From Sulfurihydrogenibium subterraneum DSM 15120 (lineage in GTDB: Bacteria > Aquificota > Aquificia > Aquificales > Hydrogenothermaceae), in the NCBI RefSeq assembly GCF_000619805.1, contig NZ_JHUV01000008.1, positions 62,001-126,000 on the forward strand: a DNA stretch of 64,000 nt, given 5' to 3'. Shown here in pieces: positions 2,210 to 63,945 of this stretch. Position 1 is the stretch's first letter; each line of letters opens with the position of its first letter. A program made the translations under genes and the position numbers. The notes below the pieces were generated by a model, which worked only from the letters and a program-made list of their open reading frames with translations, did no database searches and was not told the DNA's origin.

Positions 2210-2213
2210 TTTT

Positions 2214-2654
2214 TTATTTACCTATATGACTCCAAATTTCGTTATCGATGTTATGTAAAACGTATTCAGGAGCTCTAAGCTTCACCACATACTTTCCATC
2301 TATCTGTAAAATGCTCCCATTTTCATCTTTTTCAAAGACTGCATCAATAACAAGCTGTTTTCCTTTATAAACTTTGTATCCGTCTGGAAGTTCTTCAAGC
2401 TTATCAAATCTAAGCATATTTGCTTGCTTTTGTAGTATATCTTTTATCATCTCTTTTTTAGGAAATGATACAACTCTCTCTGATATCTGCTCGTTGTAAT
2501 ATTTATCGTTAAACCAAACTAAAATTGAAAAGACTATCACTGTCAAATCTATAAAGCCAAATGTGATAGCATACTTTGTATCTCCTTTTACTAAGAAGAC
2601 AAAAGTTAATGCTAACAAAAGAAAGATTATTGTTAAAGTAATTTTTTTCAACAT
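2214..2654 (-). CDS. Hypothetical membrane protein, two N-terminal helices
   Basis: 146 residues. Two hydrophobic segments (about residues 4-22 and 30-47) are followed by a soluble C-terminal domain of ~95 residues that alternates charged and beta-prone stretches and ends in EYVLHNIDNEIWSHIGK. I do not recognise a family. It sits 10 bases after lolA and 4 bases before the kinase gene, so it belongs to the thioredoxin-lolA transcription unit and is probably an inner-membrane protein. No catalytic motif is visible. Confidence 0.6.
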   Translation of the reverse strand: MLKKITLTIIFLLLALTFVFLVKGDTKYAITFGFIDLTVIVFSILVWFNDKYYNEQISERVVSFPKKEMIKDILQKQANMLRFDKLEELPDGYKVYKGKQLVIDAVFEKDENGSILQIDGKYVVKLRAPEYVLHNIDNEIWSHIGK

Positions 2655-2664
2655 AAACGTCCTC

Positions 2665-3270: not shown

Positions 3271-4079
3271 TAGTATAACCACATTGCAAGTTTTTTCCTA
3301 TACTCTTTTGTAAGTGGATGGGACTCTCCAAGGAGTGTAAAGATAGAAACCATCGCTTTTCTTGCTCCGTCATCTTTAAACTTTCTGTCTTGTTTTACTA
3401 TCTCTAAGAATAATTTTAGAGCTTCTTCGTAATTTTCTTCTACCGCGTAGCAAGAAGCTTGAGCATATAGTTTTTCTAACTCCGTGTTTACCTCTTTGTT
3501 TTCACACTCTTTTTTGAGCTGGATAAACTCTTTTAATGCTTGTGCTTGTGTAAAGTACTCTTTATCGTACTCTTTTATTGAGTTTAAAAGTTTTTCAGCT
3601 TCTTCAAGATGGTTAGTTTTTATCATAAACTTAGAAGCTTCTATTATAAGTTTTTTATTTTCTGGGTACTTTTCTACAGCTTCTTTGAAAAGCTGGTAAG
3701 CTCCTTCTCTGTTTCCTGATAGTATCATCATACTTGCTTCTTCTATTATTTTGTCTGCTTGGGATTTTATATATTTACTGATTATGTTTCTAACTTGGCT
3801 TTCGGGTAGAGCTCCTACAAATTTATCAACTACTTTCCCATCTTTTATTATTCTTACATCTGGAATACCGTGAACGCCAAACTCCTGGGCTATGTCAGGG
3901 TTCTCGTCTGTGTTTACTTTTGCAAGGATAAATCCAAACTCTTTTGAGAGTTTTTCAAGGATAGGTTTTAAAGCTCTACAAGGTCCACACCAAGGTGCCC
4001 AAAAGTCTACAACTACAAGATTTTCATATGATTTTTCTAATACTTCTGAAAAGTTATCAGAGTTAACATCTATAATCAT
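3270..4079 (-). CDS. Thioredoxin domain-TPR fusion protein (YbbN/CnoX-like)
   Basis: 269 residues: a thioredoxin domain (residues 1-105) with an intact WAPWCGPC active site and the GIPDVRII cis-Pro region, followed by ~150 residues of tetratricopeptide-like helices (EEASMMILSGNREGAYQLF, YEEALKLFLEIVKQ). This is the layout of E. coli YbbN/CnoX, a chaperone-like thioredoxin acting with GroEL/DnaK; the E. coli protein lacks CxxC, but here both cysteines are present, so redox activity is possible. Strong ribosome site GGAGG lies ahead of the ATG. First gene of the trx-lolA-membrane protein-kinase unit, with its own promoter at 4124-4151. Confidence 0.85.
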   Translation of the reverse strand: MIIDVNSDNFSEVLEKSYENLVVVDFWAPWCGPCRALKPILEKLSKEFGFILAKVNTDENPDIAQEFGVHGIPDVRIIKDGKVVDKFVGALPESQVRNIISKYIKSQADKIIEEASMMILSGNREGAYQLFKEAVEKYPENKKLIIEASKFMIKTNHLEEAEKLLNSIKEYDKEYFTQAQALKEFIQLKKECENKEVNTELEKLYAQASCYAVEENYEEALKLFLEIVKQDRKFKDDGARKAMVSIFTLLGESHPLTKEYRKKLAMWLY

Positions 4080-4123
4080 TCTTACCTACCTCCAAACTTT
4101 ACAAAGATTTACTTATATAATTT

Positions 4124-4151
4124 ATTATAACCATTTTAAAGTTATGTTCAA
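4124..4151 (-). promoter_or_regulatory. Sigma70-type promoter for the thioredoxin-lolA unit
   Basis: Read on the minus strand: TTGAAC (4151-4146), 16-base spacer, TATAAT (4129-4124), 45 bases before the ATG at 4079. The -35 element overlaps the stop codon of the Nudix gene. Confidence 0.6.
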
Positions 4152-4558
4152 CTGTTTAAAAAGTCTCTAACTATCTTTCCGTGGTCAAAAACAAGTTTAT
4201 CAAAAGGTATCTCTTCTAATCTGTATACTTCAGCTTTCTTTGCGTCATCTTTACCTATGGGTTGCCCGTAGGCTTTACATACAAAAACTATAGAAACAGT
4301 GTGGAATCTTGGGTCTCTGTCAGGTTTTGAATACACGTTAAACAGTTTTAATATTTCAACGTCTAAGTTTGTTTCTTCCTTCATCTCTCTGATTAGAGCA
4401 TCTTCAACACTTTCTCCTATATCTACAAATCCTCCTGGTAAAGCTAAACCGTAAGGTGGATTTTTTCTCTCTATTAGAACTATTCCTTTAAAGTTTTCTT
4501 TTTCATCAAAAACTTTAATAATTCCGTCAACTGCTACGTAAGGTGTTTTTATTGCCAT
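4148..4558 (-). CDS. Nudix hydrolase (ADP-ribose pyrophosphatase-like)
   Basis: 136 residues with a complete Nudix box, GGFVDIGESVEDALIREM followed by KEETNLDV (consensus GX5EX7REUXEEXGU, with the final Gly replaced by Asn in this copy). Nudix enzymes hydrolyse nucleoside diphosphates linked to another group; the size and the SKPDRDPRFHTVSIVFVC segment fit ADP-ribose/NADH pyrophosphatase-like members, but substrate cannot be fixed from sequence. The ATG lies 2 bases after the murE stop, so it is translationally linked to murE. Confidence 0.85.
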   Translation of the reverse strand: MAIKTPYVAVDGIIKVFDEKENFKGIVLIERKNPPYGLALPGGFVDIGESVEDALIREMKEETNLDVEILKLFNVYSKPDRDPRFHTVSIVFVCKAYGQPIGKDDAKKAEVYRLEEIPFDKLVFDHGKIVRDFLNS

Positions 4559-4559
4559 A

Positions 4560-6032
4560 TTATAGCTCCTTCAGTATTTGTATAGCTACTTCTTTATCGT
4601 CAAATGGTATAACTTGGTCTTTAATTATCTGATAGTTTTCGTGTCCTTTTCCAGCTATTAGGACTATATCTCCTTTTTGAGCCATTTTTATAGCATACTT
4701 TATAGCTTTTTTTCTATCTGGCTCTACTTGGACTTTAGACTTTTGAGTTATTCCTTCTAATATGTCGTTTATTATCTGATTTGGGTCTTCAAATCTTGGG
4801 TTGTCTGACGTAATTATTACTACATCTGATAAATCTTCTGCAACTTTTCCCATAAGAGGTCTTTTAGTTCTGTCTCTGTTTCCTCCAGCTCCAAAAACAG
4901 TGATTATTTTGTTTTGTTTTATCTGGTTTAAAGATTTTAAAATGTTTTCAAGGGCATCTGGTGTGTGGGCATAATCTATCACAATTATAAAATCTTTCCC
5001 TTCTACAACCTCAAACCTGCCTTTTATTGGATTTAAATCTAAGGTTGTACTTTGCAAAAAGTCCATATCAAATCCATCTTTTATAAGAAAAGATATAGAA
5101 GCTGATAGGTTAAATACATTAAAAAGTCCTCTTAGTTTTGTTTTAAAGGTTATGTTTTTTCCTCTATACTCTACGTTAAACAAAGTTTCAAAGATAGACA
5201 GTTTATAGTCTTTTATCTTAAACTCTCCTTCAAACCCATAGGTTATAAAGTCTATCTTTTCTTTAAAATCGTTGTATATTCTTTTTCCATAAGGGTCATC
5301 TATATTTATACTGCCTATGGGTTTGTCGTTGAAAAGCTGTATCTGGTTGAAAAACTCTCTTTTTGCTAAAAAGTAGTTTTCCATAGTTCTGTGGTAGTCT
5401 AAATGGTCTTGAGTAAGGTTTGTAAAAATACCTCCGTAGAATATAGTTGAGTAGACTCTTAATTGGTCAGCTGCGTGAGATGATACCTCTGCAACTACCA
5501 CATCACAACCTTTTTCTTTCATAAGATTAAGAGTTTTAAACCATTGGACTGGGTCTGGTGTTGTATGTCCAGAAGATATAATCTCATCTCCTATACGGTA
5601 GTTTATCGTTCCTATTACTCCTACTTTGTATCCTGCTTTTTCGTAATACTGGGCAAGAAGGTTAGAGACAGTGGTCTTTCCGTTTGTCCCTGTAATTCCT
5701 ATAACTTTTAAATACTTTGAAGGTTCATCATAAAATTTATTTGAAGCTGTAGCAAGACTTTTTCTTGTATTTTCTGAAAATACTATATTAATGTGAGGAT
5801 AGTCTCTTTTAAGTTTATCTGTTAATGAAGTATCTTGAATAAAAATAGTGTTAGCACCTTTGCTAATAGCAGATTCTATAAAGTTGTGTCCGTCTGTAGA
5901 GCTTCCTTTGATAGCAAAAAAGGCGTAATCTTTTTCTACTTTGTCGCTGTTATTAGCCAAACCTTTTATAACTTGACTTTCTCCAAAGTTTATAACTTTT
6001 TCATCTGTTAGTAAATCTTGCAGCTTCTTCAT
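4560..6032 (-). CDS. murE: UDP-N-acetylmuramoyl-L-alanyl-D-glutamate-2,6-diaminopimelate ligase
   Basis: 490 residues. Adds the third residue, meso-diaminopimelate, to the peptidoglycan precursor in the cytoplasm using ATP. The Mur ligase P-loop GTNGKTT is at residues 115-121, the central domain has VAEVSSHAADQLR and NLTQDHLDYH, and the C-terminal domain carries DNPR, the motif that selects meso-DAP rather than lysine. Agreement with dapE at 35.5-36.6 kb, which also implies DAP-type peptidoglycan. Begins directly after the stop of the deacetylase-like gene and is followed within 2 bases by the Nudix gene. Confidence 0.95.
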   Translation of the reverse strand: MKKLQDLLTDEKVINFGESQVIKGLANNSDKVEKDYAFFAIKGSSTDGHNFIESAISKGANTIFIQDTSLTDKLKRDYPHINIVFSENTRKSLATASNKFYDEPSKYLKVIGITGTNGKTTVSNLLAQYYEKAGYKVGVIGTINYRIGDEIISSGHTTPDPVQWFKTLNLMKEKGCDVVVAEVSSHAADQLRVYSTIFYGGIFTNLTQDHLDYHRTMENYFLAKREFFNQIQLFNDKPIGSINIDDPYGKRIYNDFKEKIDFITYGFEGEFKIKDYKLSIFETLFNVEYRGKNITFKTKLRGLFNVFNLSASISFLIKDGFDMDFLQSTTLDLNPIKGRFEVVEGKDFIIVIDYAHTPDALENILKSLNQIKQNKIITVFGAGGNRDRTKRPLMGKVAEDLSDVVIITSDNPRFEDPNQIINDILEGITQKSKVQVEPDRKKAIKYAIKMAQKGDIVLIAGKGHENYQIIKDQVIPFDDKEVAIQILKEL

Positions 6033-6953
6033 CTAAACCTCTAACATCTTTTCTATTGTAAGCTTTACACTTTCTCCTAAGGCGTCTAAGTTGTATCCAC
6101 CTTCTAACATAAATATGTAGGGTACATCTTTTAGCTTTAATATACTTTCTACGATTTTTCCTATGCCTTCTGTGCTTACTTCTAAGTACGTAAGAGGGTC
6201 ATCTTCGTGTAAGTCATATCCAGCTGATACAAGTATTATATCAGGGTTAAAAGATTCTACCAAAGGTGGTAGTACTTCTCTGTAAACCTGTATATATACA
6301 TCATCTCCAGTTCCTGCTGGTAGTGGGACGTTATAAGTGTATCCATAGCCTTTTCCTATGCCTTTTTCATCTTTTGAGCCTGTTCCTGGATAGAATGGAT
6401 ATTCATGAGTTGAAAAGTAAAAAACTGTATCGTCATCGTAAAAAGCTTTTTGAGTTCCATTTCCGTGGTGGGCGTCAAAGTCTATTATAAAGACTTTTTT
6501 AAGACCTTTGCTTTGTGCATACCTTGCTGTGATTGCTATATTGTTAAAAATGCAAAATCCCATAGCTTTATCTTTTTCTGAGTGGTGTCCTGGGGGTCTG
6601 ACTGCACAAAAAACCCTTTCTACCTCTTTTGTTAATATTTTATCTACAGCCTCCAGTCCTGCACCTACAGCCATTACAGCAGCATCGTAAGAATGTATTC
6701 CTACGTGAGTGTCAGGGTCTAAGTAGCCTCCTCCCGCAGAGCAAAAATCCATAATCTCCTGAGGATAGTAAGTATCATGTATAAGGGTTATCTCCTTTGC
6801 AGTTGATCTTCTTGGGCTTATGTGAATAAGTCTATCTTTAAGTGGCTCAATATACTTATTAATGTAAATCAATCTTTGAGGTGATTCTGGATGACCTATA
6901 CCTGTATCGTGTTTTAAGTAAATATCATCGTAAATGTAGCCCACTTTTCTCAT
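6033..6953 (-). CDS. Histone deacetylase/AcuC superfamily deacetylase-like protein
   Basis: 306 residues of the zinc-dependent HDAC/acetylpolyamine amidohydrolase fold. Visible active-site elements: HPESPQRL (21-28), catalytic His pair PPGHH (H123, H124), zinc ligands D160 and H162 in DFDAHHGNGTQ, third ligand D247 in SAGYD, and the GGYN loop near the end. Bacterial members act on acetylated polyamines or proteins (AcuC removes acetyl from acetyl-CoA synthetase); Aquifex HDLP is a close precedent within the phylum. Substrate here unknown. It leads the murE-Nudix unit, with no gap to murE. Confidence 0.88.
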   Translation of the reverse strand: MRKVGYIYDDIYLKHDTGIGHPESPQRLIYINKYIEPLKDRLIHISPRRSTAKEITLIHDTYYPQEIMDFCSAGGGYLDPDTHVGIHSYDAAVMAVGAGLEAVDKILTKEVERVFCAVRPPGHHSEKDKAMGFCIFNNIAITARYAQSKGLKKVFIIDFDAHHGNGTQKAFYDDDTVFYFSTHEYPFYPGTGSKDEKGIGKGYGYTYNVPLPAGTGDDVYIQVYREVLPPLVESFNPDIILVSAGYDLHEDDPLTYLEVSTEGIGKIVESILKLKDVPYIFMLEGGYNLDALGESVKLTIEKMLEV

Positions 6954-7097
6954 TCTACTTCCCCTTTTAAAGATTTTACACTCCTACTTCGTTTTTAAAG
7001 CCACCTTGCTAAAACTTTATTTTAAACTATTTTATATCAACATTCTGTTAAAATAGATAATTATAAATATAATCCAAAACATCTAAGGAGTAAAAAA

Positions 7098-8429
7098 ATG
7101 TTCAGAGTTGCAATAGTAGGAAGACCTAATGTAGGAAAATCTTCCCTTTTTAACAGGTTAATAGGTAAAAGAAAGGCAATAGTTGAAGATATACCGGGCG
7201 TTACAAGAGATAGGATAATATCAACAACAGAGTGGAGAGGCACAAGGTTTGAAGTAGTAGATACAGGTGGTTATATAACTTCAGATGAAGACAAATTTGC
7301 ACCTTACATAAGAAAGCAAGTTGAAAAAGAACTTCAAGAGGCAGACCTTCTGGTTTTTGTAGTTGATGGAAAAGCCGGTTTAACACCGTTAGATAAAGAG
7401 ATTGCAACACTTCTTCACAGAACAGAAAAACCTGTTATAGTAGCTGTAAACAAGATAGATGACCCAGAAAAAGAAAAGCTTGCTTACGAGTTTTACGAAC
7501 TTGGTTTTCAAGATGTAATTCCTATTTCAACTATACAAAAGTTAGGCATAGCAGACCTTTTAGATAAGATATACCAGTACATTCCAGACTATGAAAAAGA
7601 GATAGAGTACGAAGAAGAGGAAGAAGAAAAGGATTACATAAAAGTAGCAATTGTAGGAAAACCAAACGCTGGAAAATCTTCTCTTTTAAACGCAATACTT
7701 AACGAGGAAAGAGTTTTAGTATCTGACATTCCCGGAACAACGAGAGACACGGTTGACACTCTTTTTGAAAAAGATGGTCAAAAGTTTCTATTTTTAGATA
7801 CAGCAGGAATAAGAAAAAGGTCTAAAGTAGAGTATGGAGTAGAGTTTTTCTCAGTTGGAAGGTCTATAGAGGCTATAGAAAAAGCAGATGTAGTAGTACT
7901 TGTAATAGATGCTACTGCAGGAGCTACAGAACAAGACCAAAAAATTGCCGGATTAATACAAAGAAAATATAAACCAGCTGTTATAGTGATAAACAAAATA
8001 GATATGGTAAAAGAAAAAGATTTAGAGAAGGTTATAAAACACGTTAAAGAAAAACTCTACTTTATTGACTATGCACCGATAGTTTTAACATCTGCATCTA
8101 AAAGAACTGGTATAGAAGAATTTTTAAAACAGATTGTCAACGTTTATAACCAAGTATGGAAAAGAATTGGTACAGGTCAGCTCAACAGAGCATTGAAACA
8201 GATTACTTCATTAAGACAACCACCTTCATACCAAGGAAAACCATTAAAGATATACTATGCAACACAGTTAGAAGGAAAACCACCTGCGTTTTTGCTATTT
8301 GTAAACAAAGCAGAAGGCTTTAAAGAAAATTACGTAAAATTTTTAGAAAACAACTTAAGAAAACTTTTAGGATTAGAAAACTCACCGATAAAACTGTTAT
8401 TTAAAGGTAAAGAAGAAAAATCAGATTGA
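7098..8429 (+). CDS. der: Ribosome biogenesis GTPase Der (EngA)
   Basis: 443 residues with the tandem GTPase domains that only Der has: G1 motifs GRPNVGKSS (residues 8-16) and GKPNAGKSS (~187-195), G3 DTGG and DTAG, G4 NKID twice, then the C-terminal KH-like domain. Der assists 50S subunit assembly. A strong AAGGAG at 7085-7090 precedes the ATG. The two G domains are separated by an acidic linker rich in Glu (EYEEEEEEKD). Divergent from the deacetylase-murE unit, with a TATAAT at 7068-7073 in the intergenic region. Confidence 0.97.
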   Translation: MFRVAIVGRPNVGKSSLFNRLIGKRKAIVEDIPGVTRDRIISTTEWRGTRFEVVDTGGYITSDEDKFAPYIRKQVEKELQEADLLVFVVDGKAGLTPLDKEIATLLHRTEKPVIVAVNKIDDPEKEKLAYEFYELGFQDVIPISTIQKLGIADLLDKIYQYIPDYEKEIEYEEEEEEKDYIKVAIVGKPNAGKSSLLNAILNEERVLVSDIPGTTRDTVDTLFEKDGQKFLFLDTAGIRKRSKVEYGVEFFSVGRSIEAIEKADVVVLVIDATAGATEQDQKIAGLIQRKYKPAVIVINKIDMVKEKDLEKVIKHVKEKLYFIDYAPIVLTSASKRTGIEEFLKQIVNVYNQVWKRIGTGQLNRALKQITSLRQPPSYQGKPLKIYYATQLEGKPPAFLLFVNKAEGFKENYVKFLENNLRKLLGLENSPIKLLFKGKEEKSD

Positions 8430-49050: not shown

Positions 49051-50391
49051 ATGGAAAGCAAGGAAATTTTCACAAACAAAATATGGGTTAATGTCCTTGC
49101 TGATTTGAAGGAAAAAGTGGATGAAAACACATATTCCTTACTTTCTGGATTAGATAATGTAGAAATCAAAAACAACAGTTTATATATATATACACCAGAT
49201 AATGTATATAAAACATGGATTTTAGCAGATTTGTTAGAAGATATAACTTCATCTGCTAAAAAAGTGATAGGACAAGATGTTAATATCAAAGTTATTTCAT
49301 TAAAAGAGATAAAAAACCAAAAAAAAGAGGAAGAAAAAAAACAAGAAGACAAAAACTTTTACGGATATCTAACTTTAAATCCAAAGTTAACTTTTAAAAA
49401 CTTGGTCATAGGAAATAACAATAAGGTTGCATACCAATCATGTATAGCAGTGGCAGAAAATCCCGGAAAAATATTTAATCCACTTTTTATTTATGGAGAT
49501 GTTGGTCTTGGAAAAACTCATATGTTACATGCTACTGCATACCATTTACTAAAAAGAAATCAAAATGCAAAAATAATATATACAACAGCAGACACGTTCG
49601 CATCTGAGATGTTTTCTTATATCCAAAAAGGAATGATTTTAGAGTTTAGAAAGAGATACAAAGATGTTGATTTACTACTGATGGATGATATTCAATTTCT
49701 TGTTGGTAAAGAGAGAACTCAAATTGAGTTTTATCACATATTTAACATTCTTTATACTACAGGAAAACAGATTATACTATCATCAGATCAGCCACCAAAT
49801 AGTCTTAGAGGTATAGAAAAAAGATTAATAAGTAGATTTAATAGCGGCTTAATCGTGGAAATAACAAAGCCAGACTTAGAAACAAAAATCAGTATAATAA
49901 ATAAAAAGGCAAGTGAATACAACATAGCAATACCCCGAGAAGTTGCAATCTTTTTATCAAAAATAGTAAACTCAAGTGTTAGAGAACTTGAAGGAGCTGT
50001 TAAAAGATTAAAGGCATACTGTGAGATAATGGGAAGACCATTAAACCTTGAAACAGCAAAAACAGTTTTAAAAGATATTGTAGAGCTGAAAGAAATTAAA
50101 CCTATTTCTGTAGAAACTATTATAGATGAAGTTTGCAATTACTTCAAAATTGATAAAAAAGATTTACTTAGTGATAAGAAAAATAAAAACTTGGTCATTG
50201 CAAGGCAAATAGCTATGTATTTATCAAAGACCCTTACAGAAGAGTCATTGTCCTCACTATCTACATACTTTAAAAAGAAAAATCACTCGACTATTATAAG
50301 TGCTTGCAATAAAGTAGAAGATTTAATTGATAAAGATAGAAAATTTAAGTTGATAGTAGACTTTCTAAAAGATAAACTTATTGCATCATAA
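49051..50391 (+). CDS. dnaA: Chromosomal replication initiator DnaA
   Basis: 446 residues with all four domains: N-terminal domain I (IWVNVLADLKEKVDENTY), a short lysine/glutamate-rich linker, the AAA+ domain with Walker A GDVGLGKTH and Walker B LLMDDIQFL, and the DNA-binding domain IV with the signature KKKNHSTIISACNKV (usually GGRDHSTV). dnaN is not adjacent, and neighbours are metabolic genes, as happens in deep-branching phyla. 3' end overlaps a convergent gene by 14 bases. Confidence 0.96.
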   Translation: MESKEIFTNKIWVNVLADLKEKVDENTYSLLSGLDNVEIKNNSLYIYTPDNVYKTWILADLLEDITSSAKKVIGQDVNIKVISLKEIKNQKKEEEKKQEDKNFYGYLTLNPKLTFKNLVIGNNNKVAYQSCIAVAENPGKIFNPLFIYGDVGLGKTHMLHATAYHLLKRNQNAKIIYTTADTFASEMFSYIQKGMILEFRKRYKDVDLLLMDDIQFLVGKERTQIEFYHIFNILYTTGKQIILSSDQPPNSLRGIEKRLISRFNSGLIVEITKPDLETKISIINKKASEYNIAIPREVAIFLSKIVNSSVRELEGAVKRLKAYCEIMGRPLNLETAKTVLKDIVELKEIKPISVETIIDEVCNYFKIDKKDLLSDKKNKNLVIARQIAMYLSKTLTEESLSSLSTYFKKKNHSTIISACNKVEDLIDKDRKFKLIVDFLKDKLIAS

Positions 50392-53489: not shown

Positions 53490-53933
53490 ATGCTTGATTT
53501 TATACTTGTCTTGGCTTTTTTATACTTTTTACTACTTGGTATTTATAGAGGTTTTTTAAATCTTGTTTTTAAATTTTTGGGTTTTTTTAGCGGTATCTTT
53601 GTAGGTATCGCTTTTTATAAACCCTTTAGTAGCATACTTTCTAATGTCTTCTCTGCAAGTCCCTCAGTAATAAACTTTTTATCATTTCTACTTATTATTC
53701 TTGCTGTAATGGGTTTTAGTCTAATACTGGAAAAAGTATTAAAAAGATTTATCTACACTAAAAAATACATAAAGTTAGGAGATAGAATCTTGGGCGGAGT
53801 TTTAGGAATTTTTGTCTTTGTTGCCTGTGTCTTGTTTTTGGTTAATTTAAAAGAAAAGAATGAAATTGCAAACACTCTACTATCCAAATCTCAAATCGTA
53901 TCATTTATTTCCAAAAGCAATTATAAAAACTGA
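53490..53933 (+). CDS. CvpA-family membrane protein
   Basis: 147 residues, four helices. The first helix DFILVLAFLYFLLLGIYRGF and the later LGDRILGGVLGIFVFV fit CvpA (colicin V production, envelope homeostasis). 3' end overlaps the convergent hypF gene by 13 bases. Confidence 0.83.
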   Translation: MLDFILVLAFLYFLLLGIYRGFLNLVFKFLGFFSGIFVGIAFYKPFSSILSNVFSASPSVINFLSFLLIILAVMGFSLILEKVLKRFIYTKKYIKLGDRILGGVLGIFVFVACVLFLVNLKEKNEIANTLLSKSQIVSFISKSNYKN

Positions 53934-56170
53934 TTATATACAACTTGAACTTGACCTAAAGATATTCCTCCATCGTTAGGAGGTACGTTTTTATGATATA
54001 GAAATTTCTTCTTATTACCTTTTTCGATCAAAAGATTTAATAGAACTCTGTTTTGGAAAACTCCTCCTGAAAACCCTACTGGCAGGTCAAACTCTTTTGA
54101 AACGTCTAAAATAATTCTAACAAGCGTATTTATAAATCTTGAAACTTTTACTGATACTTCACTTTTGTCAAATATCAAATCTATAAAAGTATTATCGTAT
54201 TTTATTAGTCCATTTTTTATTTCATATGAGTAATGGTCTTTTACAGTATGATCGTAAAACTTTTCCATTATCATACCAGACTGCCCTTCGTAAGACAAAG
54301 TCTGGCGTATATTTAACAATGACGCTACAGCATCAAAAAGTCTTCCAACGGAGGAAGACAATGGGCTTTTTAATCCTTTTTCCCATATAGTATAAAAGCT
54401 TTCTATTTGTTTTTCAGAAACCTCTCTTACCGGTGTCGGGTTTAAATTTAAAACATCTTTTCCGAAAATTTTAAACAAGATTGACAGAGCTACTCTTTTT
54501 GGCTCTTTTACCGCTTTTTCTCCTCCAAGCAGTTTAAAATAATCAAAATGAAATACTCTATTAAACCCTGTGTAATCACAGACCAAGAACTCCCCTCCCC
54601 AGAGGTTGCCGTCAGCTCCGTATCCTGTTCCATCCCAACAAACAGCAAGTATTTTTTCGTTTTGAATCTGGTTATCAGCCATTAAAGATAAAGCATGGGC
54701 GTAATGGTGTTGAACTTGAATTAATTTTATATCAAAGTTAGATGTAAATTCTTTTGCCCATTTTGTTGAATAATAAAAAGGATGTAAGTCTGATACTACC
54801 ACGTCAGGGAAAAAATTATATAATTCAAAGAAAGTATTTATAATTTCTTCAAAATTTTGCCGAGAAGATACTGTTTCTAGGTCTCCTATATGTTGAGAAA
54901 TAAAAGCTTTATCATCTATTCCTAAGGCTATAGTTACTTTTTGGTGTCCTCCTACTGCTAAAACTTTATTTTTGAGTTTAAAAGGTAATTTAACTGGAAG
55001 TGGTGCATATCCTCTACTTTTACGTATAAAGAACATCTTATCTTTAACAGAAAAAACTACAGAATCATCTACTCTGTTTTTTATATCTCTGTTATGTACA
55101 AGAATGTAATCTGTAAAGTTTGAAAGTTTCTCAAAGGCTTCATCGTTATCTTTTACAATTGGCTCATCAGAAAGGTTTGCAGAAGTCATTACAAGAGGTT
55201 TTCCTGTAATTGTCAAAAGTAAATGGTGTATAGGTGAGTAAGGTAAAAAAACACCTATTTTATCTATATCAGGGGCTATTTTATCTGATAAATCAGTATT
55301 TTCTCTCTTTTTTATTAAGACTATCGGTTTTTCTGCAGAAGTTATTAAAATTTCATCAAAATCAGAGGGTTCTCCATATTTTTTTATAGTTTCTAAATCT
55401 TTAAACATTACTGCAAAAGGCTTCTCAAATCTTTTCTTTCTCTCTCTTAATGTAGAGACAGATGTGTCATTTGTAGCATCACACACGAGATGGAATCCGC
55501 CTATACCTTTAACTGCGACTATTTTTCCTTTAAGAATTAAACTTTTTAGTATTTCTATAGCCTCTAACGACTTTGCTATAAGTTGCTTATCCTTTGTATA
55601 AAGAAAAATTTCAGGACCGCACACAGGACAGGCATTTGGTTGAGCATGAAATCTTCTGTTTGATGGGTCTGTATATTCTCTTTTACATTCAGGACACATT
55701 TTAAACTTTTTCATTGTGGTGTTTTCTCTATCATAAGGGAGCTTTTCTATAATTGAAAATCTGGGACCACAGTTTGTACAGTTTATAAAAGGATACATGT
55801 ATCTTCTATCTGATGGGTCGTACAACTCTCTTAAACATTCATCACACGTGGATATATCTGGAAGTATAAAAACGTTTTTTTCAGTATTAGAATTACTTTC
55901 TAAAATTTTAAAATCTTCGTAATTTTTTAATTCTTCAGAAAATTCTACAGATTGAGAAAATATGTTAGCAAGTCTTGGTTTTTCATTATGTATAGAAAGG
56001 ATAAAATCTTTTATAACTTTTTCCTCTCCTTCCACCTCTATAAATACGCCTTTACCGTCATTTAACACAAATCCATTCAGTCTATATCTCCTAGCCAGAT
56101 TGTATACAAAAGGTCTAAAGCCAACTCCTTGAACAGCTCCAGTAAGCTTTATTATAGCTCTCTTAATCAA
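53921..56170 (-). CDS. hypF: Carbamoyltransferase HypF, intact
   Basis: About 749 residues. Makes thiocyanate for the CN ligands of the Ni-Fe site by activating carbamoyl phosphate and handing carbamoyl to HypE. Numbered from the TTG at 56170 (a TTG seven codons upstream is possible): acylphosphatase VQGVGFRPF (catalytic Arg-19), zinc fingers CDEC, CTNC, CPEC and CPVC (109-184), YrdC-like domain (KGIGGFHLVCDAT, RERKKRFEKPFA, TSANLSDEPI) and Kae1-like domain (HHYAHALSLMADN, WDGTGYGADG, SGGVFQN). Overlaps the stop of the preceding HypF-like gene. Confidence 0.93.
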   Translation of the reverse strand: MIKRAIIKLTGAVQGVGFRPFVYNLARRYRLNGFVLNDGKGVFIEVEGEEKVIKDFILSIHNEKPRLANIFSQSVEFSEELKNYEDFKILESNSNTEKNVFILPDISTCDECLRELYDPSDRRYMYPFINCTNCGPRFSIIEKLPYDRENTTMKKFKMCPECKREYTDPSNRRFHAQPNACPVCGPEIFLYTKDKQLIAKSLEAIEILKSLILKGKIVAVKGIGGFHLVCDATNDTSVSTLRERKKRFEKPFAVMFKDLETIKKYGEPSDFDEILITSAEKPIVLIKKRENTDLSDKIAPDIDKIGVFLPYSPIHHLLLTITGKPLVMTSANLSDEPIVKDNDEAFEKLSNFTDYILVHNRDIKNRVDDSVVFSVKDKMFFIRKSRGYAPLPVKLPFKLKNKVLAVGGHQKVTIALGIDDKAFISQHIGDLETVSSRQNFEEIINTFFELYNFFPDVVVSDLHPFYYSTKWAKEFTSNFDIKLIQVQHHYAHALSLMADNQIQNEKILAVCWDGTGYGADGNLWGGEFLVCDYTGFNRVFHFDYFKLLGGEKAVKEPKRVALSILFKIFGKDVLNLNPTPVREVSEKQIESFYTIWEKGLKSPLSSSVGRLFDAVASLLNIRQTLSYEGQSGMIMEKFYDHTVKDHYSYEIKNGLIKYDNTFIDLIFDKSEVSVKVSRFINTLVRIILDVSKEFDLPVGFSGGVFQNRVLLNLLIEKGNKKKFLYHKNVPPNDGGISLGQVQVVYNQFL

Positions 56171-58136
56171 TAAACATTCCACCCAAGACAAAATTTTCTT
56201 GACTAACAGAAAGTAGTTTATTTGTAAATAAGTTATATCTGCTAAGATGTTTTAAAATTCTACCTGTTAAGACTGTATTACTTAAAAAGTCTCCCGTAAT
56301 AATTACGTTTTTAGTATCAAACTTTGTGGATATTTTACTTACTTGGTTTTCTATAAACTCTGAAAATCCTTCTATCATTGAAAAAGAGATTATTTTTTCA
56401 TCATCTCCAGCTAATCTATAAGACATCAAACTAGCCAACGCCTTTTGCCAATCTATGTAAAAAGATCCCTTATCTTCTCTAATTACAAAATCTACCATAA
56501 GCCCTCTTGAAGTTTTAAAATCTAAGGCAAAGCTTTCTATTGTATCCACATCCCCTATATTAAGGATTTTTCCCATAATATTAAAAATAGATTTTAATCC
56601 ATTGGTAAATCCTAAACTCTCATTCAAATCTTTATTCTCTACATTAGGATTGAATTTTTCTATGTACCTTTTTACTAATCTGTCGTACTCCGGTGAAAGA
56701 TTTGATATTTCATTTAACACTGAAGATATTATTTGATTCTCATTTTTAAAGTACTTTAAAGGAAGTACTTTTATAAGAGGTTTTATATCTGATTTTTTTA
56801 TTGCTATCACACTTTCAAATTTCTTTGAGAGATATATACAGACAACTGATTCATCAAAAAGGTTATGTTCTGCTATAACAGACAGTATGGCTAGTTTATA
56901 TGGATTGTAATTATCCAACTCTATAATTTCATTCTTTCCTAACTCTTTAATTTTATCTATCTTATCTATAAGATATTCATTCTTACCTATTTTTGTACAT
57001 CCCAAATCTATATATTTAACGGTTTTTTCTACATCTTTATTTAATTTTAAAACAGCAGGGAATAAACCTCTCTCTCCTTCTAAAATTAAAGTTATACCTT
57101 GAACGACAGCCACTTTAAGCTCTTTTTGAGGATTTTCTATTTTTACATCAAAATCTAATCTGGGAGCTTCATAAGAATAATTTTTTTCATTTACAAACAC
57201 ATAATCTATTCCTTTTTTCTTTAAAAAGTCAGATAATGATACTAGTATGGGATCATCAGGAAGTTTAGCATACCAAAAATTTAAGTTAATATTCTCTTTT
57301 CTAGAGAATTCTTCTTTAAGTTGTAGTTTTACCAGAGGTTTTTCTATTGAAGCAAGTAGCTTTATTTCTTTGTTTGATAAGTACGCAATATTGTTTATAT
57401 TTTCCATATTTGTTATTAAGATATACGAATCTGCTCTAAATTGTTTACAGATAGATTTATACCCGTTTAAAGTTTTTACCACAACATCTTTGCCGTTTTT
57501 TATATACTCTGCTAACTTTAAAAGTATGTTTATATTTGCTTGAGAATTTAAAGATAAGATTTCTTCATTGCCTTCATAAAATGATATAGGTACAAAACAT
57601 TCATAACAAGATGTAAGAGGATACTTATATCTAAAACTATCTTTTGAGTTATACTCTTGTTGACAATTTTCACACATTTGAAAGTATTTAAAAATCGTAT
57701 TGTTTCTATCAAATGGATAATGAAACAGATAACTGTACTGAAAACCACAAAAATTACAGGATATAAAAGGATACAGGTATCTTCTACTGTTTGGATCTAA
57801 GAGCTCCTGAGTACAAGAGGGACAAAGACCATAATTTACTGGAAGAATATTTAAAGTTTTGTTTTTTATGTAAAAATCTTCAATTAGGATTTCTTCCTCT
57901 AAAACATTTACGGAAGCATCATTCATAAAAAAAGATAGAGGCAGTTTTGAACCTAATGTCTCCATAAATGTCTTTATTTTATCCTCATTTGATGATACTA
58001 CAATCTTTATTCCTTCTGAAGTTCTTTCAACATAACCTTTTACATTTTCTTTCTGTCCAATTCTTTTTACCAAAGGTAAAAATATATCATTTTGATATGG
58101 ATATGGTATTTTAATTTCCAATGTAATCTCATCCAT
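56163..58136 (-). CDS. Degenerate HypF paralogue, active sites lost
   Basis: 657 residues, alignable by eye with HypF along its length. The eight zinc-finger cysteines are kept (C105, C108, C127, C130, C155, C158, C177, C180) with DPNSRRYLYPFISC and YPFDRNNTIFKYF closely matching HypF. Elsewhere key sites are gone: the acylphosphatase VQGVGFR is YPYQNDIFL (Arg to Leu), the YrdC RxxKxKPF and TSAN motifs are absent, and the Kae1 HHxxH region reads NYNPYK. The frame is open and uninterrupted, so it is maintained. A scaffold, HypE partner or regulator of hypF is inferred. Starts directly after the protease gene. Confidence 0.8.
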   Translation of the reverse strand: MDEITLEIKIPYPYQNDIFLPLVKRIGQKENVKGYVERTSEGIKIVVSSNEDKIKTFMETLGSKLPLSFFMNDASVNVLEEEILIEDFYIKNKTLNILPVNYGLCPSCTQELLDPNSRRYLYPFISCNFCGFQYSYLFHYPFDRNNTIFKYFQMCENCQQEYNSKDSFRYKYPLTSCYECFVPISFYEGNEEILSLNSQANINILLKLAEYIKNGKDVVVKTLNGYKSICKQFRADSYILITNMENINNIAYLSNKEIKLLASIEKPLVKLQLKEEFSRKENINLNFWYAKLPDDPILVSLSDFLKKKGIDYVFVNEKNYSYEAPRLDFDVKIENPQKELKVAVVQGITLILEGERGLFPAVLKLNKDVEKTVKYIDLGCTKIGKNEYLIDKIDKIKELGKNEIIELDNYNPYKLAILSVIAEHNLFDESVVCIYLSKKFESVIAIKKSDIKPLIKVLPLKYFKNENQIISSVLNEISNLSPEYDRLVKRYIEKFNPNVENKDLNESLGFTNGLKSIFNIMGKILNIGDVDTIESFALDFKTSRGLMVDFVIREDKGSFYIDWQKALASLMSYRLAGDDEKIISFSMIEGFSEFIENQVSKISTKFDTKNVIITGDFLSNTVLTGRILKHLSRYNLFTNKLLSVSQENFVLGGMFID

Positions 58137-58679
58137 CTAAAAACTCCTTAAATTGTTGTATGACCCTATAAAATCAATGACAACATCTTGAATAGATTTA
58201 TCGTTTATTTTCTCATAATTAACTCCTAAATTTTCGAGTTCTTTAAGTACAAGATTTATAAAAGGATGAAATACATTTTCTAAAGTTAATGTTAATCCTA
58301 TTTCTGTTTTTGTTATGTCTTCTGGAACTACTCCTAAAACGATTACTTTTGCAGACTTACCTCCCAATGCTGCAAGATCAATCATCTGAAGTACTTCAAC
58401 CTCATGAGCTGTTTGGTGATAATATGATAATCCTGCAAGATTTTCTCCCTCTATTCTATAGATAGAACCTGCCCTATCATTAACAGAGATAACATCAAGT
58501 AAGATTACATAGTCATAATCTTGAAAGTACTCAATAAGTTTAAAGCCTCCAGTTCCTCCATCTATTAGTGATATTTCAGGATTGAATCTGTAGTTTTGTT
58601 GTAAATATTTAACGGCAAAAACGCCAAAACCTTCATCTTTAAAAAGTATATTTCCTACTCCTAAAACTGCTATCTTCAT
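58137..58679 (-). CDS. Hydrogenase maturation protease (HyaD/HynD type)
   Basis: 180 residues from the ATG at 58679, with GAGGTGG upstream. Trims the C-terminal tail of the large subunit once nickel is inserted. Nickel-sensing ligands E16 (FKDEGFG), D62 (LLDVIS) and H92 (QTAHEVEV) are present, with GVGNILFKDEG and DGGTGGF typical of the family. Length includes an extra ~20-residue tail beyond most homologues. Downstream of a terminator-like hairpin that separates it from hynC. Confidence 0.92.
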   Translation of the reverse strand: MKIAVLGVGNILFKDEGFGVFAVKYLQQNYRFNPEISLIDGGTGGFKLIEYFQDYDYVILLDVISVNDRAGSIYRIEGENLAGLSYYHQTAHEVEVLQMIDLAALGGKSAKVIVLGVVPEDITKTEIGLTLTLENVFHPFINLVLKELENLGVNYEKINDKSIQDVVIDFIGSYNNLRSF

Positions 58680-58700
58680 AGCCCACCTCAAAATAAAAAA

Positions 58701-58746: not shown

Positions 58747-59448
58747 TTATTCCTTAACTCTTTTAAATTTGTAACCACCAAAGACTATAGCAATATCTCC
58801 TTCTTTCCAGAATATAGTTCTCCACACTTGATAGTAGATATGAAACATTACCCAAGCAAGGATTAAATACATTGTAAAATGGTGAACCAATCTAACTCCA
58901 GCAAGCCCACCAAATACCCACAAAGTCCAGTCAGTTGTAATGTGAAGAAGCCATGGCCACCAACTACCTATAGAAGAAAGACCACTTCCTAAACCGGCAA
59001 CGTACATCTGAAATCCTGTAAATAACATTAACACTAACATTAGATGTAAAACTGTAAACCAAACGATATTGAAGCTGTCAGCATGAGAGCTATCAAAATT
59101 TTTTCTTCTGTTTAGAGTTATAAGATTTAGGAAAACTTCTTTAAATTCGTTAATATTTTGTTTAGTTGGTATTAACTTATAAGCATACCTTTCAAAGTTA
59201 CTTCTAAAGTATAAGTATGCTATAACTACAGAGACAATATCCAATAAAAGAGCAGCCATAAAATGGAGAAATCTGTTATAAGCCATAACAAACTTGTAAG
59301 CTGCTGGTTCAGATATTAAAGCCTGATAGTATGGATTAGCTATGTAAAGACCTGTTATTACAGCTGTAATAATACAAAAAACATTAGTCCAGTGTATTAT
59401 TCTCATCGTAACAGTCATTCTTTTTACGGGAATTAACTTTTCAGACAT
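58747..59448 (-). CDS. hynC: [NiFe]-hydrogenase cytochrome b subunit
   Basis: 233 residues, four to five helices. Candidate heme ligands His-19 (RIIHWTN), His-62 (RFLHFMAA), His-189/190 (RLVHHFTM) and His-203 (MFHIYY), the usual arrangement of HupC/HyaC di-heme cytochromes. Takes electrons from the small subunit to quinone. Overlaps hynL by 8 bases. Confidence 0.92.
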   Translation of the reverse strand: MSEKLIPVKRMTVTMRIIHWTNVFCIITAVITGLYIANPYYQALISEPAAYKFVMAYNRFLHFMAALLLDIVSVVIAYLYFRSNFERYAYKLIPTKQNINEFKEVFLNLITLNRRKNFDSSHADSFNIVWFTVLHLMLVLMLFTGFQMYVAGLGSGLSSIGSWWPWLLHITTDWTLWVFGGLAGVRLVHHFTMYLILAWVMFHIYYQVWRTIFWKEGDIAIVFGGYKFKRVKE

Positions 59449-61177
59449 AACACATACCTCCGGATATTGGATCTATTTTATACTGTGCAATTTCTCTGCC
59501 TTTTGTATCTAATACATGTACAGCACAGGCTATACAAGGGTCAAATGAGTGTACTGTTCTCAATATTTCTAACGGCTGATCTGGATTAGAGAGTGTTATG
59601 TTTGAAACTAAAGAACTTTCATATGCACCCATTCTTCCTTTGTAATCTCTTGGTCCTGCATTCCAAGTGGAAGGGACAACCGCTTGATAATTTGCAACTT
59701 TTCCATCAACAATTCTCACCCAGTGTCCCAAAGCACCTCTTGGAGCTTCTGTAAGTCCATAACCTTTTAACTCTTTTCCTTTAGTTAATTTGTCATAATC
59801 AAATTTAGTCCATGTATCAAGGTTTCCTTTCGCTGCATTAGATGCAAGCTGATCTATCCATTCTATCATTACATCGGATATCATCCATGTTTCTATAGCT
59901 CGTGCAGCGGTTCTTCCTACAGTTGAAAAGAGCGCTTGAAGAGGTAATCCAGCAACTTTTAAAGCTTTATCTACATAGTTTTTAATTCTTTCATTTCCTG
60001 ATGCGTATCCAACAATCATTCTTGCAAGTGGTCCAACCTCTACTCTTATATCATCGTATATAGGAGATTTTATCCATGAATACTTTTCATTGACTTTTAA
60101 TAAGCCATTTTCATCAAACCCTGTGTAATTAGGATTTGTTTGACCATCAAAAGGATGTAATGGTTTATCTGTATTTTCATATTTGTACCAACTGTGTGTA
60201 ACATCTTCTGTAACCTTAGATTGATCAAAAGGAATGACTTTTGTTAAATCTTTATTGACTACAATTCCTGAGGAAAATAGAAGTTTAGCTTTATAGTGAG
60301 GATTATCATCTAATGGAAAATCTCCGTAAACAAGGTAGTTTCCAAGACCAGCTCCCACACCGTTTAAAGCCTCATCTTTATAAACTTGTCCAGCCATTAT
60401 AATATCAGGTATATAAGCTCTCAAAACAAAGTCTCTTGACTTTAAAAGAAGTTCTTTAAATAATGCTGCTCTTGCAGGGTTTTTAATATCTTGAACACAC
60501 GTTACACCACCTACTACTATTGATTGTGGATGAGGGTTTTTACCACCATATATCGCCATCATTTGAGCCATCCATCTTTGAGCTTCCAAAGCTTCAAGAT
60601 AGTGTGCAGTTGCTATCAGGTTCTGTTCAGGAGTAAATTTATAAGATTTGTTTCCCCAGTACGCATTTGCAAAAGGTCCTAATCTTCCAGATTCTACAAA
60701 CTTTTTAAGTCTCTCCTGTATTGCTTTATACTGAGTTGGTGAGTTATACCAAGGATTTTCTGAATAATTTTCTGCTTCTTTTGCAGCTTTGTAAGGGTCT
60801 GCTTTTAAAGCTGAAACGATATCTACCCAATCAAGGGCATGTAAATGATAAAAATGAACAACGTGATCGTGAATATACAATGAGCCTTCTATCAGATTCC
60901 TCACCAATCTTGCGTTTGTTGGAGGTGTTATGCCCAATGCGTGTTCAACAGCTTTTATACTTGTCCAGTAATGTACACCTGTACAAACACCACATATTCT
61001 CATAGCTATAAGTCCACAATCTCTCGCATCTCTACCTTTAAGGATGGTTTCTATTCCTCTCCACATAGTTGAAGAACTGTAAGCATCGACAATTCTATTA
61101 TTTTCATCTAAAACTACTTCTATTCTAAGATGTCCTTCAATCCTTGTAATTGGGTCTACTACTAATCTTTTAGACAT
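59441..61177 (-). CDS. hynL: [NiFe]-hydrogenase large subunit (group 1, membrane-bound uptake)
   Basis: 578 residues. Nickel ligands: RICGVCTGVHYW (C62, C65) and DPCIACAVH (C548, C551). The motif is followed by a 24-residue tail (from VLDTKGREI to GGMCYV) that the maturation protease should remove after His-554. DPITRIEGHLRIE opens the protein. The long VSALKADPYKAA and TPTNAR segments match group 1 uptake enzymes. Catalyses H2 splitting at the periplasmic face. One base after hynS. Confidence 0.97.
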   Translation of the reverse strand: MSKRLVVDPITRIEGHLRIEVVLDENNRIVDAYSSSTMWRGIETILKGRDARDCGLIAMRICGVCTGVHYWTSIKAVEHALGITPPTNARLVRNLIEGSLYIHDHVVHFYHLHALDWVDIVSALKADPYKAAKEAENYSENPWYNSPTQYKAIQERLKKFVESGRLGPFANAYWGNKSYKFTPEQNLIATAHYLEALEAQRWMAQMMAIYGGKNPHPQSIVVGGVTCVQDIKNPARAALFKELLLKSRDFVLRAYIPDIIMAGQVYKDEALNGVGAGLGNYLVYGDFPLDDNPHYKAKLLFSSGIVVNKDLTKVIPFDQSKVTEDVTHSWYKYENTDKPLHPFDGQTNPNYTGFDENGLLKVNEKYSWIKSPIYDDIRVEVGPLARMIVGYASGNERIKNYVDKALKVAGLPLQALFSTVGRTAARAIETWMISDVMIEWIDQLASNAAKGNLDTWTKFDYDKLTKGKELKGYGLTEAPRGALGHWVRIVDGKVANYQAVVPSTWNAGPRDYKGRMGAYESSLVSNITLSNPDQPLEILRTVHSFDPCIACAVHVLDTKGREIAQYKIDPISGGMCYV

Positions 61178-61178: not shown

Positions 61179-62429
61179 TTACTCCTCCTTGTTTGAAGTT
61201 ATTGTTTCTTTTTTTCCTGCCAAAGCGCTCATAACAGCATGAGCACCTATTCCTATGGCTGTAGCTGTTAAAATCGTTAACCCTACTCTATCTACTGTAG
61301 ATTCAACCCCACCAATAGCAGGAGGTCTTATATCACTTGCAGCAACAGGTCTTTCTGTAGCATATTTATCCCAGAAGTTTGGTTCTGAACAACCTATACA
61401 ACCTCTACCAACACCTATAGGCCAGTTAGTTCCATCGTTATATCTAACTATAGAACAGTTGTTGAAGGTAAATGGTCCTTTACATCCCATCTTATATAAA
61501 CAGAAGTTATTTTTTGCACCTTCGTCTCCCCATTCTTCAACAAATTCTCCGGCATCAAAGTGAGCCCTTCTTTCACAGTTATCGTGAATTCTGTACCCAA
61601 AAGCAAATTTAGGTCTCTTTAGAGAATCAAGTTCAGGTAATGAACCTGTAAGAACGTAATGCATAATAACTCCAACAATATTCACTGGATTTGCCGGACA
61701 AGCCGGAATGTTTACAACAGGAACACCACTAACAACATCCATTACTCCTACTGCTCCGGTAGGATTAGGATAGGCAGCTGGAACTCCTCCAAAAGATGCA
61801 CATGCACCAACTGCTATAACAGCTTTAGCATCTTTAGCTAATCTTCTTACTCTTTGAACACCAGTTTCAGGATGTCTTCCAGTTGTAAATGCATACTCCA
61901 TTTTTACTGGAATTGACCCTTCTACAAAAAGTAAATACTGACCCTTGAATGTTTTAACAGCATCTTCAAGACACTTTTCTGCTTGATCCCCTGCAGCAGC
62001 CATGAGTGTTTCTTGATATTCTATGGAGAGATAATCTAATATTAGCTCATCAACTGTAGGAGCAGAAGATCTTATAAGAGCTTCTGTATTTCCATCACAG
62101 TCTTGAATGTTTATCCATATAACAGGGACTCTATTCATAACTTCTGCAGCTTGAGCAACCAACGGCTCAAAAGACGGTGGGAGCATTAAAGTTGCGGTCA
62201 TCATTGAAACCCATTTAAAAAAGTCTCTCCTTGAAATATCCCACATTGAAAGGTATTCATCAAACTTTATATCATCTTCTCTAACAGGCTTTTGTGATTT
62301 AAGCCAGTTTAACCTCTCTTCTGCCTTTTTGTAAAGTTGATCGTAATACTCTTTCCCTTTATTCGTATCTATAAGGTTTGTTGGTTTTATAAACATCTCT
62401 CTTAAAAAATCTCTTCTAAAAAATTCCAT
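61179..62429 (-). CDS. hynS: [NiFe]-hydrogenase small subunit with Tat signal, variant proximal site
   Basis: 416 residues. Twin-arginine motif SRRDFFKWV (R67, R68) lies unusually far in, after ~60 extra residues; a second RR (R5, R6 in FFRRDFLRE) opens the protein. C-terminal anchor at ~381-402. Cluster ligands: distal H282, C285, C310, C316; medial C325, C344, C347; proximal C111, C210 (GACASFGG), C244 (IPACPA). The expected fourth proximal Cys is Asn-114 (CDGNTEA, usually CxGCxES). The extra cysteines of O2-tolerant enzymes are absent. Promoter at 62555-62582. Confidence 0.95.
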   Translation of the reverse strand: MEFFRRDFLREMFIKPTNLIDTNKGKEYYDQLYKKAEERLNWLKSQKPVREDDIKFDEYLSMWDISRRDFFKWVSMMTATLMLPPSFEPLVAQAAEVMNRVPVIWINIQDCDGNTEALIRSSAPTVDELILDYLSIEYQETLMAAAGDQAEKCLEDAVKTFKGQYLLFVEGSIPVKMEYAFTTGRHPETGVQRVRRLAKDAKAVIAVGACASFGGVPAAYPNPTGAVGVMDVVSGVPVVNIPACPANPVNIVGVIMHYVLTGSLPELDSLKRPKFAFGYRIHDNCERRAHFDAGEFVEEWGDEGAKNNFCLYKMGCKGPFTFNNCSIVRYNDGTNWPIGVGRGCIGCSEPNFWDKYATERPVAASDIRPPAIGGVESTVDRVGLTILTATAIGIGAHAVMSALAGKKETITSNKEE

Positions 62430-62600: not shown

Positions 62601-62945
62601 TTAGACTTCCAATTCTATACTTTTTAAAATCATATCCGTTCCGTCTATAACATCTATATTAAAACTTTGGCAAAATTGACAGACAAAGTTGTAATCTTCA
62701 ATGGTAAAATCCTGATTACAGTCATTACATCTACAAATTACACTTTGAATTTCAATGACAAACTCTGCATTTTCTGCTATAGTTTTTTCTTTAAAAGTAT
62801 TGAAAGCCACCTCTAAAAGATGTGGCTCTACTCCGGACATTTTTCCTATTTTCACTACTACTTTTGAAACAGATTTTGCATTATTTTTTCTAGCGTTTTC
62901 TTCTATAAGGTCTAACAAACTTTGCACTATTGAAAACTCATGCAT
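62601..62945 (-). CDS. hypA: Hydrogenase nickel-insertion protein HypA
   Basis: 114 residues from the ATG at 62945, giving the invariant nickel-binding MHEFSIVQ (His-2); a longer frame upstream would bury it. Zinc site CRCNDC and CQFC. Delivers nickel to the large subunit with HypB. Starts 1 base after the hypE stop. Confidence 0.94.
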   Translation of the reverse strand: MHEFSIVQSLLDLIEENARKNNAKSVSKVVVKIGKMSGVEPHLLEVAFNTFKEKTIAENAEFVIEIQSVICRCNDCNQDFTIEDYNFVCQFCQSFNIDVIDGTDMILKSIELEV

Positions 62946-62946
62946 C

Positions 62947-63945
62947 TTAACATATCCTCGGAAGTATCTCACCAGCTGGTGGCTCCATAATTCTTGAAGA
63001 TCCATAAGAAGCTTTCAGTATAACTCTTTTCTTCCCTTTGGATTTTACTTTTCCTATAAGTTGCGCATCTTTTCCAAGGGGGTTTTTCCTTAATGTTTCT
63101 AAAGTTTTTTCCGTATCTTCTTTTGATACTGCTAATACTATCCTACCTTCGTTTGCTAAAATATACGGTTCTAAACCTAGCAGTTCACATAATCCTTGAA
63201 CCTGTGGTTTAACAGGTATTTTCTCTTCCAAGACTTCTATTTCCACACTTGAACTTTCAGCCCATTCATTTAAAACAGCAGACAATCCGCCTCTGGTAGG
63301 GTCTCTCATAGCCTTTATTTTTACGTTTACTTTTATTAAGTCTTCTACTAAACTCCATACGGAAGCACAGTCTGAAGTCAGGTCTGTCTGCAAATCTATA
63401 CCTTCTCTTTGAGCCATAATACAAGCTCCGTGATCTCCAACAGTTCCCGATACAATTATAATATCTTCTTCTGATAAATTATGAGCAGATATTCCTTCGT
63501 AAACTACTTTCCCTAATCCAGATGTATTTATAAAAATTTTATCAACAAAACCTTTTGGAACTACTTTTGTGTCCCCTGTCACAATTAAAGCACCTGTTTT
63601 TTTCAGCTCTTCTGCCATAGATTTTACTATCCTTTCTAAATCTTCAAAAGGAAAACCTTCTTCTATAATAAAACTACAGCTTAAATACAATGGTTTTGCT
63701 CCCATTACAGAAAGATCGTTTACAGTTCCAGCCACTGCTAACTTTCCAATATCTCCACCATTGAAAAATATTGGAGATATGGTAAAAGAATCTGTTGTAA
63801 ATGCAATTTTTGAATTTATGTTTAAAATGGCAGAATCTTCCATACTTGAAAGAATCTCATTGTTAAAATATTTAAAAAAAAGTTCTTTTATCAATTTTTG
63901 AGTTTCTTCTCCGCCTCCACCGTGAGCAAGCATAATTTGTTTCAT
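62947..63945 (-). CDS. hypE: Hydrogenase maturation protein HypE
   Basis: 332 residues, PurM-like fold. LAHGGGGEETQKLI start, DPTRGGLSAVLNEWA, TGDTKVVPKG and the C-terminal PRIC whose Cys is carbamoylated by HypF and dehydrated to thiocyanate. Starts overlapping the hypD stop (ATGA). Confidence 0.96.
   Translation of the reverse strand: MKQIMLAHGGGGEETQKLIKELFFKYFNNEILSSMEDSAILNINSKIAFTTDSFTISPIFFNGGDIGKLAVAGTVNDLSVMGAKPLYLSCSFIIEEGFPFEDLERIVKSMAEELKKTGALIVTGDTKVVPKGFVDKIFINTSGLGKVVYEGISAHNLSEEDIIIVSGTVGDHGACIMAQREGIDLQTDLTSDCASVWSLVEDLIKVNVKIKAMRDPTRGGLSAVLNEWAESSSVEIEVLEEKIPVKPQVQGLCELLGLEPYILANEGRIVLAVSKEDTEKTLETLRKNPLGKDAQLIGKVKSKGKKRVILKASYGSSRIMEPPAGEILPRIC

Follow-up and report, generated by a model that had tools for sequence, protein, structure and literature searches.

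We analysed 64,000 nucleotides (nt) of Sulfurihydrogenibium subterraneum DSM 15120 (contig NZ_JHUV01000008.1, positions 62,001 to 126,000; hereafter the window), focusing on a gene that a sequence-only reading had described as a catalytically degenerate but intact paralogue of hypF, and that we relate here to hydE, a hydrogenase gene of Helicobacter. We use K as shorthand for this HypF-derived degenerate paralogue and P0001 for the K protein of the window. The open reading frame (ORF) is real: preceded by an aaggag ribosome-binding site, it starts with ATG and runs uninterrupted for 657 amino acids (aa) between the positions that the reading had given, but on the minus strand, from window position 58136 to 56163. 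K and its domains are as follows.

56163..58136, minus strand: K, HydE-type degenerate HypF paralogue, 657 aa (family, fold and alignment evidence)
57867..58136, minus strand: acylphosphatase-like domain (aa 1-90) without the catalytic Arg and Asn (Pfam and alignment; limits approximate)
57597..57824, minus strand: two HypF-type zinc fingers (aa 105-180) with all eight Cys (Pfam and alignment)
57132..57587, minus strand: YrdC-like domain of reduced length (aa 184-335), lacking the motifs (alignment and structure; limits approximate)
56166..57119, minus strand: Kae1-like domain (aa 340-657) without the metal and nucleotide residues (Pfam, alignment and structure; limits approximate)

K forms part of an operon-like run on the minus strand comprising hypE, hypA, hydA, hydB, hydC, hydD, K and hypF. 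The TAG stop of hydD abuts the K ATG with no gap, and at its other end K runs up to 29 nt into the start region of hypF, in keeping with the tight packing between protease gene and hypF that the sequence-only reading had pointed out. It had also judged the adjoining hypF intact, and this gene is indeed normal. No in-frame ATG occurs near the hypF start (window 56191 region); because its TTG or GTG start overlaps the end of K, translational coupling is suggested. The neighbouring features are listed below.

53921..56191, minus strand: intact hypF, 840 bits with TIGR00143, precise start codon uncertain (NCBIfam/Pfam match)
58137..58691, minus strand: hydD, hydrogenase maturation protease (family match)
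58747..59448, minus strand: hydC, Ni/Fe-hydrogenase b-type cytochrome subunit (family match)
59441..61177, minus strand: hydB, hydrogenase large subunit, of the subtype with which K goes (family match and co-occurrence)
61179..62429, minus strand: hydA, hydrogenase small subunit (family match)
62235..62429, minus strand: HydA N-terminal extension, about 60-65 aa, ahead of the twin-arginine translocation (Tat) motif SRRDFFK; co-occurs with K
62601..63005, minus strand: hypA (family match)
62947..63945, minus strand: hypE (family match)

On the plus strand, about 3.5 kb from the hypF end, lies a dnaA-like gene (window 49051-50391) named by eye from the sequence.

A HypF fold with the catalytic residues lost

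In Pfam, P0001 matches zf-HYPF twice, acylphosphatase weakly (1e-6) and HypF_C_2 below threshold, with no Pfam match to YrdC; against the TIGR00143 hypF equivalog it scores 147.1 bits, under the cut-off of 466.1 bits. We scored catalytic residues column by column in an alignment of 70 sequences (32 HypF, 17 Aquificota K, 14 Campylobacterota K and 7 HydE). At the catalytic and zinc-finger columns, 27-32 of the 32 HypFs carry the residue in question. Among the 17 Aquificota K proteins, the acylphosphatase residues R26 and N44 occur in none, YrdC residues T336, S337, N339 and E343 in at most two each, and Kae1-like residues H470, H495, H496, H499 and D527 in none. The YrdC nucleotide-binding motifs KR..KPF and TSAN.S.EP and the Kae1-like metal and nucleotide motifs HHxxH, DGTGYG and NDGG are likewise missing from K. 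Residues that are near-invariant in HypF are almost entirely gone from Aquificota K, Campylobacterota K and HydE, the exceptions being scattered single residues such as the KGIGGFHL Lys, which most Campylobacterota K retain. All eight zinc-finger Cys, by contrast with these losses, persist in 17/17 Aquificota K and 14/14 Campylobacterota K. Both the missing acylphosphatase Arg, YrdC motifs and Kae1-like His and the retained Cys and HypF layout had been recognised in the sequence-only reading. At three loci (L045:11533-13644, L044:8031-10148 and L047:8929-11043) the second zinc finger of K is eight residues shorter and keeps all four Cys.

An AlphaFold2 (AF2) model of P0001 built with 13 family rows had a predicted local distance difference test (pLDDT) score of 86.6 and a predicted template modelling (pTM) score of 0.87. 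In a Foldseek search of the PDB, ranks 1-9 were all HypF chains (E 1e-39 to 5e-25), with matches including 3vth, 3vti (the HypE-HypF complex), 4g9i and 3tsp. Because AF2 has seen HypF structures, this match lends support rather than independent proof. The model superposes on HypF end to end, so the missing motifs do not lie elsewhere in P0001; this superposition and the alignment led us to reject relocation of the catalytic motifs within the protein.

Conservation and kinship with HydE

K is confined to Hydrogenothermaceae among the 136 Aquificota genomes searched. Another 18 genomes of this family hold orthologues (about 33-80% identity), none with internal stops and two as contig-cut fragments; intact frames of 657-739 aa are present in 17 genomes. 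Purifying selection acts on K: the ratio of non-synonymous to synonymous substitution rates (dN/dS) is 0.16-0.23, compared with 0.12-0.14 for HypF, figures that are approximate, the synonymous sites being partly saturated. The frames have therefore stayed intact far beyond chance. Because orthologues are intact, dN/dS is low and full-length relatives exist in Campylobacterota, we reject recent decay in one strain; the two findings that the earlier reading named as able to overturn it, single-strain decay and motifs elsewhere in the protein, are both ruled out. The intact orthologues, selection and catalytic loss give strong support to its central proposal, a HypF paralogue retained for a non-enzymatic role. 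One genome (G224) holds a second, near-identical hydrogenase operon in which K is split into three ORFs (L222:4564-6516), while K of its sister operon is unbroken.

When 84,980 species were scanned, K relatives of full length turned up in Sulfurimonas, with the gene order hydA-hydB-hydC-K-hypF-hydD. The order hydA-hydB-hydC-hydD-K(-hypF) is conserved in both phyla, Aquificota and Campylobacterota. A family member of 542-575 aa directly follows hydABCD, in the HydE position, in H. pullorum, H. valdiviensis, H. burdigaliensis, H. mesocricetorum and Helicobacter sp. 11-8110. Comparison of the K and HydE profiles with hhalign gave a probability of 100% (E 4e-44, 531 columns), and Helicobacter HydE proteins score 133-148 bits with the K profile and at most 22 bits with hypF. 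A single branch (SH-aLRT, Shimodaira–Hasegawa-like approximate likelihood ratio test, 100) split K and HydE from the 32 HypFs in a tree made by a quick method without bootstrap, in which the HydE branches are long. The C-terminal part of the Kae1-like domain of P0001 is the most conserved with HydE; overall HydE is about 18% identical to K, and its residue-level alignment to HypF is uncertain in places. On profile and tree evidence, K represents in Aquificota the HydE family, to which the HydE-position gene of Helicobacter hydABCDE belongs, and K is the bridge that reveals HydE as a degenerate HypF. This placement of the HydE-position gene in a family derived from HypF is, judged from sequence comparison, what is new here. 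The HydE family is present in neither Pfam nor NCBIfam, and no description of HydE as HypF-like or as a HypF paralogue was found in the literature searched, in which Benoit 2004 is represented by papers citing it.

HydE of Helicobacter and Wolinella (HP0635 in H. pylori) thus resembles K in family, in its position after hydD and in the kind of hydrogenase it accompanies. Helicobacter-type HydE differs in being shorter (528-575 aa), in having an origin from HypF that is nearly invisible to public hidden Markov model (HMM) libraries, in not being adjacent to hypF and in having largely lost the zinc-finger Cys. These are almost wholly gone in the seven aligned HydE proteins, and C-x2-C pairs are absent from Helicobacter HydE sequences read directly, independently of any alignment; parts of the YrdC-like and Kae1-like regions are retained. 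A 558-aa Sulfurimonas member (L146) with one weak zf-HYPF match is, by sequence, an intermediate in this loss. As most of the HydE proteins sampled no longer have the fingers, these cannot be the core of family function, and the argument from selective zinc-finger retention, offered earlier for a kept role, fails family-wide. Strongly shortened members of 470 aa, overlooked by general searches, lie between hydD and hypF at L223:5500-6912 and L225:5456-6868.

We then compared the distribution of K with that of HydB, calling HydB close at an identity of at least 69% in a set of 61 Aquificota relatives. K occurs in 19 of 20 genomes with close HydB and in none of 41 without (Fisher 7e-15); more than half of these 41 have hypF, and some have another hydrogenase. 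The sole genome with HydB and no K is a draft that is 78% complete. Two drafts counted as lacking HydB (G021 and G031) are really undecided, because they hold HydA of the K type and HydB fragments at contig breaks. Across 80 Campylobacterales genomes, a family member is present in 61 of 64 with HydB and 0 of 16 without, at least 3 of these 16 having hypF. Among the three exceptions, one contig stops after hydD (G089), one is cut at hydB (G070) and one genome has another hydrogenase type (G080); two apparent exceptions (G072 and G092) do carry a divergent 470-aa member. Genomes with two operons (L216 and L220) have one K/HydE per hydrogenase operon and a single hypF, and G008 retains K about 145 kb from hydB. 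As co-occurrence follows hydrogenase subtype and not hypF, we disfavour K as a mere companion of HypF.

In K-associated Aquificota, every HydA with a complete 5' end carries an extension of about 60 aa ahead of SRRDFLK. Where the genome lacks K, the alignment of HydA begins only at about residue 49-65, except for one broken frame that aligns from residue 27. Helicobacter-type HydA keeps about 40 aa of the extension alongside a reduced HydE. The pre-Tat extension is a candidate docking site for K on this pattern.

A proposed role in hydrogenase assembly

In H. pylori, hydrogenase activity is reported to require HydE: the mutant is hydrogenase-negative with no rescue by nickel and normal urease, as relayed by passages of PMC7695850 citing Benoit 2004. 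Since the family includes HydE with these reported mutants, the earlier statement that no counterpart was known is wrong genetically, and because K is a relative of HydE, it is probably a helper of hydrogenase assembly. We consider it probable that K/HydE, a pseudoenzyme that arose from HypF, is devoted to the assembly of a single subtype of membrane-bound uptake [NiFe]-hydrogenase (HydABC); we infer its lack of any enzymatic activity, its binding partner and the step at which it acts. An ancient HypF duplicate would have lost the carbamoyl-phosphate hydrolase, adenylation and carbamoyl-transfer chemistry and retained the HypF fold. Its HypF-like body could offer a docking surface by which apo-hydrogenase of this subtype (the HydB precursor, HydA bearing its long Tat leader, or both) would be held by K or paired with the shared Hyp machinery (HypE/HypF and HypC/HypD) before HydD cleavage and Tat export. 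A tentative elaboration, possible though short of likely, makes K/HydE a subtype-specific checkpoint that would recognise the extended HydA Tat leader and apo-HydB of one lineage, couple Hyp cofactor delivery to export, and add a third layer of specificity to the HypA/HybF and HypC/HybG paralogues.

Several other roles compete with this assembly factor. The long HydA extension, present wherever K-associated Aquificota HydA has a complete 5' end, missing from K-less HydA and kept in part beside the reduced HydE, would also suit a protein acting mainly in Tat proofreading or membrane targeting by binding that extension. HydD/HydE have been assigned to membrane localisation, and none of the other genes seen in the scanned operons stood where a dedicated chaperone would be expected. 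We regard this role as doubtful: two features that co-occur inside a single hydrogenase clade need not bind each other, no known Tat chaperone has the HypF fold, and the localisation statement is a secondary citation in the relevant part of PMC4992972 (mBio 2016). Neither K nor HydE has a Pfam/NCBIfam match to HyaE/HybE-type Tat chaperone families. It is unlikely that K is instead a pseudoenzyme subunit of a HypF heterodimer, pairing with HypF or HypE, as TsaB does with TsaD, and tuning the rate or stability of HypE carbamoylation. The heterodimer subunit suggested earlier can draw on the overlap between K stop and hypF start that the window shares with many operons of Aquificota and Campylobacterota, on the entire HypF fold, and on the threonylcarbamoyladenosine (t6A) system of related folds, which needs TsaB, a reduced-fold TsaD paralogue, as TsaD partner (PMC11648230). 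A hydrogenase-specific role fits better, since the presence of K tracks hydrogenase subtype, not hypF: many genomes have hypF without K, two-operon genomes have two K and one hypF, several genera have K unlinked from hypF, and HydE has lost the zinc fingers and much shared surface.

A new enzymatic activity on the complete HypF fold could account for residues invariant across K of both phyla (for example E265, P267, D549, S569, A576 and G615 in P0001), but these form no recognisable nucleotide- or metal-binding set and the ATP/AMP motifs are gone from all three domains, which makes such an enzyme very improbable. Least credible of all is a functionless, decaying hypF duplicate; its catalytic residues are gone and K is broken in one duplicated operon copy, yet intact frames under selection in two phyla, a single ancient origin, near-perfect co-occurrence and the HydE mutant phenotype all speak against it. 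Some observations weigh against the assembly factor that we favour. Its partner interaction is a prediction, presence with a hydrogenase clade could partly reflect joint operon inheritance, and the frequent position of an overlapping hypF directly after K is equally compatible with a HypF partner. Mirror-tree correlations with HydB, HydA and HypF (r = 0.82, 0.80 and 0.78) do not single out HydB or HydA over HypF. HP0635 itself is placed in the family by operon position in the five named Helicobacter, not by its own alignment, and the reported membrane localisation points elsewhere. One genome contains a hydA-hydB-hydD set without hydC and K/HydE (L219, G090:C18:29000-37500), beside two complete operons elsewhere.

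Known systems offer partial parallels. HypF carbamoyltransferase shares domain order, fold, zinc fingers (with the K branch) and some operon neighbours with K, which lacks all its acylphosphatase, YrdC and Kae1-like catalytic residues (147 bits against the cut-off of 466). HoxV/HupK, like K, is a dead paralogue of a hydrogenase-system protein that works as a dedicated maturation factor, as described in passages of PMC12134894, but it derives from the hydrogenase large subunit, to which K has no Pfam/NCBIfam match. The HypC/HybG/HupF and HypA/HybF sets are Hyp-protein paralogues that give hydrogenase specificity, as proposed for K, according to the same passages, and unlike K they keep metal- or cofactor-handling residues. 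TsaB, in the TsaD-TsaB t6A complex, is also a degenerate Kae1-family paralogue, kept as an essential partner; it is single-domain, and a K-HypF partnership is hypothetical.

The function of HydE, reported as necessary for H. pylori hydrogenase activity, is still called unknown in the passages on it in recent papers (PMC7695850; PMC5557546). Tracing HydE back to HypF, through intermediates in Aquificota and Sulfurimonas that still bear zinc fingers, turns orphan hydE into a testable pseudoenzyme hypothesis. It also suggests a HypF-derived layer of specificity in [NiFe]-hydrogenase maturation, one that the searched passages of a 2025 review (PMC12134894) do not include, mentioning neither a HypF counterpart of the paralogue sets nor HydE.

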